A stretch of DNA of 44,637 nucleotides from Bacteroidales bacterium Bact_11 (GTDB lineage Bacteria > Bacteroidota > Bacteroidia > Bacteroidales > UBA932). A model generated the notes under the pieces. It made no database searches, had not been told where the DNA came from, and was given only the letters and a program-made list of their open reading frames with translations. The position numbers and the translations under genes were made by a program. The DNA is taken from contig LUZC01000002.1 of the NCBI GenBank assembly GCA_001603505.1, forward strand, positions 1 to 44,637, in the 5' to 3' direction. Position 1 is the stretch's first letter. Every line of letters starts with the position of its first letter. Positions 16,618-30,402 of this stretch are shown here, one piece after another.

Positions 16618-17466
16618 ATGGAAAAGACAGTGTATCCGACAAAGGTCGAAGAACAGCGTGGGGAAGTTATCCTGTATCAACCGGACGATACGATTCGTCT
16701 GGAGGTCAGGATGGCTGATGAAACGGTGTGGCTGACTCAGGCGCAGATGGCGGAATTGTTTCAGACGACAAGAAGCAACATCACGCTTCATATCGGTCAT
16801 CTCTTTAAAGAAGGAGAGTTGGATCGGTTATCAGTATGTAAGGAATCCTTACTTACTGCTTCAGACAACAAAGTTTACAGAACCACACTGTATAATCTGG
16901 ATGTCATCATTTCTGTCGGTTATCGTGTCAAGAGTATTCAAGGCACTCGTTTTCGCCAGTGGGCCAACCGCGTATTGAAAGAGTACCTTTTGAGGGGATA
17001 TGCCGTAAACCAAAGGGTTGAGCGGTTGGAACAGAGGATGTCGGTCGCAGAAAACAAGATTGACTTTTTCGTCCGTTCTGCGCTTCCGCCGGTTGAGGGT
17101 GTCTTCTACGACGGACAGATCTTCGACGCTTTCCATTTCGTCTCCAATCTGGTCCGTTCTGCCAAAAAAAGAATCATTCTGATTGACAATTATGTGGATG
17201 ATTCCGTGCTTACGCTGCTCGATAAAAGGAAGGTTGGCGTCAGTGCAGAAATCATCACTCGGCCCATTTCCAATCAATTGAAACTCGATCTGACCCGGCA
17301 TAATGCACAATATGCTTCCATAACCCTCAGCCAGAGCTTGCGATACCATGACCGATTCCTTATCATTGACGATGTCGTCTATCATATTGGATCTTCGTTG
17401 AAAGATCTTGGTAAAAAGTTGTTCGCCTTTTCGAAAATGAGTATTACTGTGTCAAACCTGATCTGA
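16618..17466 (+). CDS. RhuM-family DNA-binding protein with phospholipase-D-like C-terminus
   Basis: A 282-residue protein of the RhuM family. The N-terminal winged-helix/ORF6N-like part (about 10-125) contains WLTQAQMAELFQTTRSNIT, then YNLDVIISVGYRV and FRQWANRVLKEYLLRGYAV. The C-terminal part (about 150-275) contains FYDGQIFDAF, IILIDNYVDDSVLTLL and HDRFLIID...YHIGSSLKDLG, a PLD-like fold whose HxK motif is HDR, so classic nuclease activity is uncertain. Such genes occur sporadically in Bacteroidetes and on mobile elements; the Salmonella namesake lies on a pathogenicity island but has no settled function. Base composition is visibly more AT-rich than the neighbours and it stands alone between two unrelated operons, consistent with horizontal acquisition. 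The start ATG at 16618 fits the family N-terminus. Confidence 0.8.
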   Translation: MEKTVYPTKVEEQRGEVILYQPDDTIRLEVRMADETVWLTQAQMAELFQTTRSNITLHIGHLFKEGELDRLSVCKESLLTASDNKVYRTTLYNLDVIISVGYRVKSIQGTRFRQWANRVLKEYLLRGYAVNQRVERLEQRMSVAENKIDFFVRSALPPVEGVFYDGQIFDAFHFVSNLVRSAKKRIILIDNYVDDSVLTLLDKRKVGVSAEIITRPISNQLKLDLTRHNAQYASITLSQSLRYHDRFLIIDDVVYHIGSSLKDLGKKLFAFSKMSITVSNLI

Positions 17467-27166: not shown

Positions 27167-28510
27167 ATGAAAAAGATTGTTCTCACATTCATCCTGATGA
27201 CGTGCGGCCTGACCGGGCAGCTCGCCACCGCCGGAGCGCAGAGCGTGGCGAACGGGGCCCCCTGGACGCTGAACGACTGCATCCAGTATGCCCTCGACCA
27301 CAACCTCAGCGTGCAGCAAAGTGCGTTGCAGGTGGAACAGCGGGAGATCGAACTCAATACCGCGCTAAACAGCCGGCTTCCCGGCGTGGCCGCCAGCGCT
27401 TCGCAGAACTTCTCGTTCGGCCGCGGCCTGACCGCCGACAACACCTACGCCAACGCCAACACCACGAACACAGGGTTCAACCTCGGCGCCGACATGACGT
27501 TGTTCAACGGCCTGCGCACGCGCAACACCATCGAGATGGACCGCCTCAACCTGAAGGCGGCCACGCAGGATCTCGAGAAGATGCGCGACGACATCCGCGT
27601 GGCGGTGGCCCAGGCTTATGTGCAGATTGTATATAATCAGGAAATCCTCGAAGTAGCGCAGCGACAGGTAGAGATGGATTCCCTGCAGGTGGCGCGCCTC
27701 GAGGCGATGCAGCGCACCGGCAAGGCCGCTTCGGCCGATGTGGCCGTGCAGCAGGCGACGCTTGCACAGAGCCGCGTGACGGCCGTGCAGGCAGCCAACA
27801 ACCTGCAGCTCGCCCGGCTGGAACTCGCGCAGCTGTTGGAACTGCCCTCCCCGGAAGGTTTCTCGGTGGTGATTCCGGAAATCCGTGACATCCCTGCATT
27901 GACCGGAAGCCCCGAAGCGATCTACGAAGAGGCGCTCGGCATCAAGCCTTCCGTGAAGGCGGAGGAGACGCGGCTTGCCTCGGCGGAACGCGGCATCGAC
28001 ATCGCCCGTGCGGGATACTTTCCTTCGCTCTCGCTCAACGGCGGCCTGGGAACGAACTACTATACCAGTTCATCGCTTCCCGCTACCGCGTTCTTGACAC
28101 AGCTGAGCAACAATTTCAGCCAGTATGTGGGCCTCTCGCTCAGTGTGCCCATCTTCTCGCGGATGAACAACCGCAACCAGGTGCGCAGCGCCCGTGTCAG
28201 CTACGCGGCCCAGCAGGTGCAGCTCGACCAGGCCAAGAAGCAGCTCTATAAGGAGATACAACAGGCGTGGTTCGGTGCTGTGGCGGCCCGGTCCAAATAT
28301 GAAAGCAGCGTTCAGGCCGAGGAGGCAGCCTCTCAGAGCCTTTCCCTGATGCAGGCCAAATATGAGAATGGCAAAGCCTCCGTCACCGAATACAACGAAA
28401 CGAAAAACCAATACTTGAAAGCGGCTTCCGACCGGGCGCAGGCTCGCTGCGAAGCCCTCTATCAGGCCGGACTTCTCGAATTCTATCGCGGTAAAGATAT
28501 ACAACTATGA
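27167..28510 (+). CDS. TolC-like outer-membrane efflux channel
   Basis: A 447-residue outer membrane efflux protein with a signal peptide (about 1-24), two OEP repeats of long helices and beta-strands (NDCIQYALDHNLSV..., then AYVQIVYNQEILEVAQRQVE, then SVPIFSRMNNRNQVR) and no lipobox. It completes the MacAB-TolC-like pump. It begins 6 bases after the adaptor stop and its own stop overlaps the first PspC gene (ATGA, 28507-28510). Confidence 0.92.
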   Translation: MKKIVLTFILMTCGLTGQLATAGAQSVANGAPWTLNDCIQYALDHNLSVQQSALQVEQREIELNTALNSRLPGVAASASQNFSFGRGLTADNTYANANTTNTGFNLGADMTLFNGLRTRNTIEMDRLNLKAATQDLEKMRDDIRVAVAQAYVQIVYNQEILEVAQRQVEMDSLQVARLEAMQRTGKAASADVAVQQATLAQSRVTAVQAANNLQLARLELAQLLELPSPEGFSVVIPEIRDIPALTGSPEAIYEEALGIKPSVKAEETRLASAERGIDIARAGYFPSLSLNGGLGTNYYTSSSLPATAFLTQLSNNFSQYVGLSLSVPIFSRMNNRNQVRSARVSYAAQQVQLDQAKKQLYKEIQQAWFGAVAARSKYESSVQAEEAASQSLSLMQAKYENGKASVTEYNETKNQYLKAASDRAQARCEALYQAGLLEFYRGKDIQL

Positions 28511-29076
28511 AAAAGACCCTAACCATCAGCATTGGCGGAAAGAGCTTCATTATCGATGAAGACGCGCATGACCGCCTCAAGAACTACCTCGATACGTTCC
28601 GTTCGCGTATTCCGGACGGACAGGGAAGCGAGGTGATGAACGATATCGAAGCCCGCATCGCGGAGCTGTTCCAGGCCAATCTCGGCTCCAGTCAGCAGTC
28701 CGTGAGCCTGGCGCTCGTGAACCAGATTACAACCCAGCTGGGCATGCCCGATGGAAAACCTGAATTTGAAAACGAACAAGAACCTTTTAGGGAGGAAACA
28801 ACCATGAGTAATCCTGTCAAAAAACTCTATCTGGACGTCGAATCCAGAAAATTAGCCGGCGTGTGCAGCGGCCTGGCGGCTTATTTCGACATTGACGTGA
28901 CATTGATCCGGATTCTTTTCCTGGCCGGACTCTTTGCGGGAGGTTTCACCTTCTGGCTTTACATTATCATTTGGATCGTGGCTCCCAAGGCGTTGACGCC
29001 GGCCCAGAAGTGTGAACTCCGCGGCTGGGAGGTCAATGCGGAGAACATGGCCCGTTTTACCGACAGCAGTAAATAA
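28507..29076 (+). CDS. PspC-domain membrane protein 1, with possible internal start
   Basis: 189 residues in two parts. The N-terminal soluble domain (1-90, TISIGGKSFIIDEDAHDRLK ... EVMNDIEARIAELF) is the Bacteroidetes extension often fused to PspC. The C-terminal PspC domain (about 105-165, KLAGVCSGLAAYFDIDVTLI plus one or two TM segments) is present. In E. coli, PspC is a membrane sensor of envelope stress. Inside the gene an in-frame ATG (codon 100, 28804) is preceded by GGAGG at 28791-28795 with an 8-base spacer, a strong ribosome-binding site for this window, so a short product of about 90 residues (the PspC domain alone) is possible. It overlaps the TolC-like gene and precedes PadR by 7 bases. 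Confidence 0.82.
   Translation: MKKTLTISIGGKSFIIDEDAHDRLKNYLDTFRSRIPDGQGSEVMNDIEARIAELFQANLGSSQQSVSLALVNQITTQLGMPDGKPEFENEQEPFREETTMSNPVKKLYLDVESRKLAGVCSGLAAYFDIDVTLIRILFLAGLFAGGFTFWLYIIIWIVAPKALTPAQKCELRGWEVNAENMARFTDSSK
28791..28806 (+). promoter_or_regulatory. Internal Shine-Dalgarno site and start codon within PspC gene 1
   Basis: GGAGG (28791-28795), eight bases, then ATG at 28804-28806, in frame with the PspC gene. Shine-Dalgarno sites are rare in the rest of this window, which makes this one notable. The downstream product would start MSNPVKKLYLDVESRKLAG, the natural beginning of a stand-alone PspC domain. Confidence 0.5.
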
Positions 29077-29083
29077 GTAGCTT

Positions 29084-29413
29084 ATGGAACCCAATGCGGA
29101 AAACGTGCGTTCCCAGATGCGGAAAGGGGTGCTGGAATATTGCATCCTGAGTATCCTGGACAAGAAGGAAGCCTACGCTTCCTCGATCATCGACGAGCTT
29201 AAGGCCGCCAACATGATCGTGGTGGAAGGTACCCTCTATCCGCTGCTCATCCGCCTGAAAAACCAGGGATCGCTGACATATCGCTGGGAGGAATCCCCAC
29301 AGGGGCCTCCGCGGAAATACTATTGCATCAGCGAATCGGGCCGGGCGCTCCTCGGTGAGATGGACGCCTCTTGGATCGAATTGGTAGAAACCATCAAAAC
29401 TTTGAAGCAATGA
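29084..29413 (+). CDS. PadR-family transcriptional regulator
   Basis: A 109-residue winged-helix repressor. The PadR N-terminus (QMRKGVLEYCILSILDKKEAYASSIID) is followed by the wing and recognition region (VVEGTLYPLLIRLKNQGSLTYRW, then GPPRKYYCISESGRALL) and a short dimerisation helix. PadR proteins commonly repress exporter genes and are released by lipophilic drugs or stress. Encoded between two PspC genes and downstream of a complete exporter, it most likely controls this operon and itself. A candidate operator is the palindrome at 22729-22755. Its stop overlaps the second PspC start by 4 bases. Confidence 0.9.
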   Translation: MEPNAENVRSQMRKGVLEYCILSILDKKEAYASSIIDELKAANMIVVEGTLYPLLIRLKNQGSLTYRWEESPQGPPRKYYCISESGRALLGEMDASWIELVETIKTLKQ

Positions 29414-30402
29414 CGGAAGTACAGAATGTAAGCATCGGAGGATACGCCTTTACGCTCGAAGTGGAAGCGTATGCCATGGTCAAGCAATACCTCGACGAAC
29501 TGGAAGCCCACTATGCTCAGTTGGAAGGAGGAACCGAGGTGATGGAGGGCATCGAGGAACGGATGGCGGAACTGCTCTACGAAAAATGCGCCGACGACGG
29601 CGTGGCTTCCGTGGCGGAGGTGGGCGACATCATCGCTACGCTCGGCAAGCCTTCGGCCATCGAGTCGGAGAGCGACCCGGACCCGAAGAAGGCGGAGGCG
29701 CCTGCCGCAGGTCCGCACCGGGAAGGGAAGAAACGGCTCTACCGCGACCCGACCAACAAGATGATCGGCGGTGTGTGCAGCGGCCTGGCGGCCTATTTCA
29801 AAATTGACGTGGTCATCATCCGCATCATTTTCATCGGCCTGTTCATCCTGGGTCTTTCCGTCCATATCCACAACGGTCACTGGAATGTCAACGGCTTTGG
29901 CGGGATCGTGATGCTGGTGTATATCGCCCTCTGGATTGCGATGCCCGAGGCCAAGACGGTGAAGCAGCGCTGGGAGATGGGCATTACTAATCCGCCCTCC
30001 GGCGGGCAGCCGGCGGGCAGCGACCTGGGACGCGTGCTGCGCGTCATCATCGGCTTCCTCCTGTTGCTGATTGGCGTATCCGGCTTGACAGGCGGCGTGG
30101 CCGCCCTTTTCGGCCATTCGCTTTTCGGATGGGACTGGATGTCGGAACTGAAGGTGGATGTCTTCGACGAGATGCCGGAACTGATGCCGCTCCTGACATC
30201 GTATTTCTATAAAGTGACGCTGCTCCTGGTAGGTTTCCTGCCGCTGGTGGGCATGATCTACGGCGGCACCATGCTGGTGTTCGACTTCAAGTCGCCATCC
30301 TGGCGCCCCGGCCTGGTGATCTTCCTGCTCTGGGTAATGTCGCTGGTGGTCTTTATCGTGCTGACCCTGATGGGGGTGTTCCAGGCGGGAAACTTCGACT
30401 AG
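29410..30402 (+). CDS. PspC-domain membrane protein 2
   Basis: 330 residues with the same N-terminal domain as PspC protein 1 (VSIGGYAFTLEVEAYAMVKQ ... MEGIEERMAELLY) and a proline/lysine-rich linker. The PspC domain (MIGGVCSGLAAYFKIDVVII) is followed by three or four further hydrophobic segments, making it a multi-pass inner-membrane protein. The ATG at 29410 overlaps the padR stop (ATGA); a longer frame upstream runs through padR and is not used. Its TAG stop is shared, as the CTAG palindrome at 30399-30402, with the convergent gene. Probable role: envelope-stress sensing together with PadR and PspC 1. Confidence 0.85.
   Translation: MTEVQNVSIGGYAFTLEVEAYAMVKQYLDELEAHYAQLEGGTEVMEGIEERMAELLYEKCADDGVASVAEVGDIIATLGKPSAIESESDPDPKKAEAPAAGPHREGKKRLYRDPTNKMIGGVCSGLAAYFKIDVVIIRIIFIGLFILGLSVHIHNGHWNVNGFGGIVMLVYIALWIAMPEAKTVKQRWEMGITNPPSGGQPAGSDLGRVLRVIIGFLLLLIGVSGLTGGVAALFGHSLFGWDWMSELKVDVFDEMPELMPLLTSYFYKVTLLLVGFLPLVGMIYGGTMLVFDFKSPSWRPGLVIFLLWVMSLVVFIVLTLMGVFQAGNFD

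Follow-up and report, generated by a model that had tools for sequence, protein, structure and literature searches.

In-frame internal starts in bacterial genes give rise to N-terminally truncated proteoforms, as in the cases of the CheA short form, IF2-beta and the CcmM short form covered in the available text of PMC11005335. The nearest described setting for the gene considered here is the HAAS-PadR dyad (PMC11237479), for which the model is that the HAAS domain would relay a membrane signal to PadR. The available text of PMC11237479 makes no mention of internal starts, and the literature on PspC isoforms, as far as its accessible parts go, yielded nothing about the HAAS-PspC gene. Ribosomes of Bacteroidia are reported to fail to recognize Shine–Dalgarno (SD) sequences and to conceal their anti-SD in a pocket that bS21, bS18 and bS6 form; loss of bS21 increases the translation of strong-SD reporters, an effect that depends on pairing below −13 kcal/mol (PMC9976891, available text).

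The HAAS-PspC gene of Bacteroidales bacterium Bact_11, a gut bacterium, is a membrane-stress gene. The window, i.e. the whole stretch of DNA that was analysed (44,637 nucleotides of contig LUZC01000002.1), places it in a cluster with the neighbours listed in Table 1. The PspC domain of its product is matched by Pfam at residues 105–162 (E 1.4e-21). The HAAS family (PF22564) matches the window protein with an E value of 0.2 (12.5 bits, below the gathering score of 27), was matched in all 18 aligned members at a max_evalue of 10, with a best E value of 1.9e-11, and has its GxP motif represented in the window protein by GMP. An AlphaFold2 model calculated from 18 sequences (mean pLDDT 64) consists of a β-hairpin and three helices, a linker with pLDDT below 50 (residues 82–103) and then the PspC region. 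With a stand-alone PadR-like regulator (PF03551) adjoining the gene, the locus looks like the HAAS-PadR-PspC neighbourhood in the available text of PMC11237479. The ATGA overlaps at 28507–28510 (TolC/HAAS-PspC) and 29410–29413 (PadR/PspC2) suggest that translation is coupled from gene to gene in the operon. In the window sequence, GGAGG is absent at the gene starts of both HAAS-PspC and PspC2.

Table 1. Features of the HAAS-PspC locus (positions in the window)
Feature	Position	Strand	Remarks
TolC-like outer membrane efflux protein	27167–28510	+	ATGA overlap with start of HAAS-PspC gene
HAAS-PspC gene, full length, 189 aa	28507–29076	+	HAAS-like domain, residues ~1–80; disordered linker, 82–103; PspC membrane domain, 105–162
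Internal Shine–Dalgarno core GGAGG	28791–28795	+	Present in 15/16 clade genomes
Internal in-frame ATG	28804–28806	+	8 nt after GGAGG; ATG in 16/16 clade genomes
Predicted nested short gene, 90-aa PspC-only proteoform	28804–29076	+	From translation; production in cells presumed
PadR-like transcriptional regulator, predicted partner of HAAS domains	29084–29413	+	PF03551, E 2.9e-17
Paralogue (PspC gene 2): related N-terminal domain, PspC, LiaI-LiaF-TM	29410–30402	+	Overlaps PadR by ATGA; junction lacks an internal start

We consider it probable (roughly three chances in four) that the HAAS-PspC gene has two starts, one for the 189-aa full protein and one, led by its own SD, for a 90-aa PspC-only form. 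This reading, predicted from comparative sequence data, is based on the position of the internal signal, its fixed spacing, its conservation in the clade, which exceeds that of control sites, and its location at a domain boundary. The sequence-only reading had described GGAGG followed after eight bases by an in-frame ATG where the PspC domain begins, and this description is confirmed: the spacing is exactly eight, the frame is that of the gene, and within the 189-codon ORF the ATG stands at codon 100, five codons ahead of the Pfam PspC match. GGAGG and ATG both lie close to the end of the low-confidence linker in the AlphaFold2 model. An in-frame start codon with an initiation-type signal, a mark of in-frame internal starts, is found inside a longer gene. 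The 90-aa form still matches PspC family models and, as is also the case for the full protein, scores below the equivalog cut-offs.

In a single genome such a site is compatible with chance, and the case rests on conservation. The window contains four GGAGG-ATG patterns compared with 1.89 expected, a number reached in 15 of 100 shuffles, and in 251 kb of the genome GGAGG lies upstream (−18 to −5) of 18 of 1450 internal Met codons; the single-genome pattern is thus within chance. The same 251 kb, window included, has GGAGG in this interval at seven of 184 putative gene starts, an approximate figure since these starts are the first ATGs of ORFs of at least 100 aa; the view that SD sites are otherwise scarce here is borne out. 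Pairing of −8 kcal/mol or better is equally common at internal Met codons (64/1450) and at putative starts (8/184), which tells against the two-start reading, as does the reported failure of Bacteroidia ribosomes to recognize SDs (PMC9976891).

The window's clade comprises 16 of the 31 genomes of the genus that have a HAAS-PspC gene (73–100% identity); those of its genomes that bear names are MAGs. The GGAGG-N8-ATG arrangement is kept in 15 of the 16, and the ATG in all. The exception, L017, is the only member without the SD and sits on the longest branch of a four-gene tree. Among the 15 carriers, the distance from PD to the SD ranges from 32 to 44 nt and that from the ATG to KKLY is 12 or 15 nt, while the SD and the ATG are always separated by eight; in six carriers the ATG lies one codon nearer to PspC with this distance unchanged. 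Codons that encode at least three different residues across the carriers are overlapped by 188 gap-free stretches of 5 nt, of which one, GGAGG, is invariant. The sequence-only reading had named a GGAGG that is not conserved where the protein is as an observation that would count against it. In the clade the reverse holds, with GGAGG kept where the protein varies.

The best surviving alternative, which we nonetheless regard as unlikely, is constraint on the protein: the linker would require a Met beside PspC as well as an acidic pair, with GGAGG resulting from the choice of GAG GAA codons. Codons 97–98 indeed encode Glu-Glu in 14 of the 15 carriers (Glu-Asp in L007). The residue before the pair varies (codon 96: R, E, M or K), however, and its third base is always G; an invariant third base with four or more residues is found in four of 120 columns over four genes, codon 96 included. 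Codon 97 is GAG in 15/15 carriers. None of the other 32 conserved Glu columns, drawn like this one from the HAAS-PspC gene and from portions of TolC, PadR and PspC2 (33 columns in total), is GAG throughout; four are all-GAA, and GAG makes up a share of 0.40 of the codons in these 32. In a phylogenetic test with a FastTree tree and a simple two-state model, the probability of an all-GAG Glu column is 0.032 and that of a column of E, K or Q codons that all end in G is 0.15, with a joint probability for both synonymous columns of about 0.005. These values are not tiny, which leaves room for the protein-level explanation, and because of them the codon evidence alone is only moderate. It is strengthened by the unchanging spacing and by the variability of the first codon. 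Conservation at the nucleotide level thus appears to exceed protein constraint in the clade, to a moderate degree once phylogeny is corrected for.

Control sites also argue against a protein-level origin. As controls, three further in-frame GGAGG-ATG sites from the window were traced in the 15 clade relatives, with GGAGG anywhere in −18 to −5 plus ATG as the criterion; the set left out the in-frame site at 16711 and the minus-strand pattern at 883–898. The ATG by itself is kept at these sites in 12, 14 and 15 of the 15 relatives, GGAGG together with ATG in only 5, 9 and 6, compared with 14/15 at the internal start (20/45 for the pooled controls; Fisher p 0.0008, ignoring relatedness). At the corresponding junction of the paralogue, no Met is found at a distance of up to 12 residues from the anchor in any of the same 16 genomes.

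Alternatively, the SD-like stretch might pause elongating ribosomes between the two domains, aiding folding or membrane insertion, and not serve as an initiation site. Its place in a low-confidence linker right before the membrane domain would suit such a role. Pausing, however, would not call for an ATG at a constant distance of 8 nt, and the spacing is held whether the ATG lies four or five codons from KKLY; we regard this explanation as distinctly improbable. Two further observations speak for the internal start. The fold of the region (−25 to +25 of the internal start) is weaker than that of 81–96% of the segments of the same gene in the 15 carriers, and in L017, without the SD, weaker than that of 97%; this weak folding owes partly to the A-rich linker. 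Pairing of the internal SD with the 16S tail ranges from −9.3 to −14.0 kcal/mol in the carriers (−10.8 kcal/mol in the window) and is better than that at the gene's own start in 15/15, narrowly so in L010.

The sequence-only reading had left two interpretations open, a full protein accompanied by a short membrane sensor, or a record of the fusion of two once-separate genes. The first has gained comparative support; the second fares badly against the distribution of the fused gene. Among the 40 genomes of the genus, 33 gave a match (31 with the gene, two with stand-alone PspC only) and seven gave none; in the family, 159 of 199 genomes did so, a set that overlaps that of the genus. The family survey covers 158 homologues, fetched as the best match per genome with some weaker matches left out and orthology untested; in all of them the fused N-domain and PspC cover query residue 1 to at least 182. 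The fused form also occurs in the neighbouring paralogue and in eight of nine more distant Bacteroidota records (L057–L064), mostly without an internal Met. Removed before counting were L002 (the same gene region as L001), L048–L056 (clade species from another collection), L057–L065 (other families) and L106–L107 (stand-alone PspC), and L091, L109 and L125 could not be assigned to a class. The 155 classified homologues comprise 17 with SD and Met at the boundary (15 from the clade, L030 and L037), 14 with Met without SD and 124 with neither; outside the clade, an SD-led start is thus found in two of 139. The 15 genomes of the genus that have the gene and lie outside the clade divide into one with SD, four with Met without SD and ten without Met. 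L030 has AAGGAGG-N8-ATG and L037 has AAGGAG-N6-ATG at the same domain boundary. Since both branch away from the window's clade in a quickly built protein tree that carries no support values, the internal start may have had more than one origin.

A fusion relic would account for a signal resembling a ribosome-binding site at a domain boundary, and two genomes of the genus (G020 and G022) match only by a stand-alone PspC gene. Against this, the fused form is found throughout the 158 homologues and in the paralogue, and the internal start is limited to one clade and two scattered positions in the tree. With the fused form as the rule and fused genes without an internal start as the family norm, the internal start looks derived, and a relic of fusion is unsupported and very improbable. 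The stand-alone PspC matches of G020 and G022 (L106 and L107) are frames of 72–73 aa with no SD at the ATG. The least credible explanation is functionless chance in the window's genome, with which the pattern alone is compatible (GGAGG-ATG in frame at 18 of 1450 internal Met codons) and which its conservation in 14/15 relatives, compared with 20/45 at the controls, leads us to reject.

A Met at the linker–PspC boundary without GGAGG or AAGGAG was observed in L019, L026, L031, L040, L066, L067, L078, L080, L081 and L085. The SD-less Met cases span several separate lineages, and several have an A-rich upstream region; they are possibly non-SD internal starts.

The lineage has the parts needed for SD recognition under the control of bS21. 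A search with RF00177 located 16S rRNA in two of 21 genomes (G032, full length, and G030, partial) and none in the window's own genome; the full 16S tail used here is accordingly from one relative, G032, and has ACACCTCCTTTTT, with the anti-SD CCTCC intact. The rpsU gene was found in 18 of 21 genomes of the genus, and AAAAGGAGGTGT precedes its start in all 18; the rpsU SD pairs with the G032 tail over 13 bp at −19.6 kcal/mol (two loci computed). In the family, the extended SD AAAAGGAGGTG is present in 39 of 43 located rpsU loci (L146–L163 and L309–L335), and Tyr54 of bS21 is present in all 43 products, including those of the window's own genome and of loci that lack the extended SD. With 26 nt upstream scored against a generic tail, the pairing of rpsU passes a cut-off of −13 kcal/mol in 21 of 25 newly fetched located family loci (from the best-scoring 27 of 55 genomes with a match), as against none of 28 in the order's other families (located among the best-scoring 29 of 111 genomes with a match). 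Extended SDs on rpsU thus occur in this family of Bacteroidales, in an order for which the available text of PMC9976891 reports no genome under its criteria for rpsU autoregulation. This is a contrast only, because those criteria (rank among ribosomal genes and a genome's own 16S tail) differ from the measure used here. For rpsR in the genus clade (L212–L225), AAGGAG precedes the start in nine of 14 loci, is absent in four and is cut off in one.

In a more specific form, the internal start would be mostly silent on ordinary ribosomes and fire when bS21 is scarce, and the ratio of HAAS-PspC to PspC-only protein would then report the state of the ribosome to the envelope-stress circuit. We rate such a switch low and doubtful, since control by bS21 is tied to pairing below −13 kcal/mol in the available text of PMC9976891, a value reached by one of the 15 carriers (L006, −14.0 kcal/mol; the other 14 are weaker). 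The window's site falls short of an exceptionally strong SD in this sense. That the level of bS21 sets the ratio of short to full protein is therefore speculation, for which the lineage has the parts and in which the internal SDs are mostly weaker than required.

In the two-start reading, ribosomes entering at 28507 would make the full protein, in which the cytoplasmic HAAS-like domain is tied to PspC, and ribosomes entering at the second, SD-led start would make the PspC membrane domain alone. Because a conserved second start signal lies in the middle of the gene, one gene probably yields the sensor at full length together with a short product consisting only of the membrane part, and because the internal start splits the HAAS-like domain from PspC, the likely product is the PspC-only proteoform. 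The short form might mix with full-length PspC in the membrane and, lacking a HAAS domain for PadR, dilute or buffer the sensor. If it is translated, a small and easily overlooked membrane protein would join a stress-sensing module that was proposed on comparative-genomic grounds, the sensor would be separated from the transducer at the level of translation, and an SD would have been retained within a gene in a class whose ribosomes reportedly ignore SDs. Together with the extended SDs of rpsU, the internal SD makes the remaining role of SDs in Bacteroidales testable.

Compared with the bS21-controlled rpsU of Flavobacterium johnsoniae (PMC9976891, available text), the lineage is alike in its intact anti-SD, in Tyr54 of bS21 and in an SD before the start; it differs in that bS21 control is tied there to pairing stronger than −13 kcal/mol, whereas the internal SDs (−9.3 to −14.0 kcal/mol) are in the range of rpsR and only that of L006 reaches this strength. 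The locus shares with the HAAS-PadR dyads of PMC11237479 (available text) a HAAS-like domain fused to PspC with PadR next door, as well as a second gene that combines PspC with LiaI-LiaF-TM. The neighbourhoods described there include stand-alone pspC genes, whereas a stand-alone PspC would here arise inside the fused gene. With the CheA short form, IF2-beta and CcmM (PMC11005335, available text), the predicted arrangement has in common an internal in-frame start and the loss of the N-terminal part. It differs from them in that the host belongs to a class whose ribosomes normally ignore SDs and that the short product is predicted from sequence only. CheA is the signalling case among them, and in the gene described here the part dropped would be the HAAS-like domain proposed to talk to PadR.
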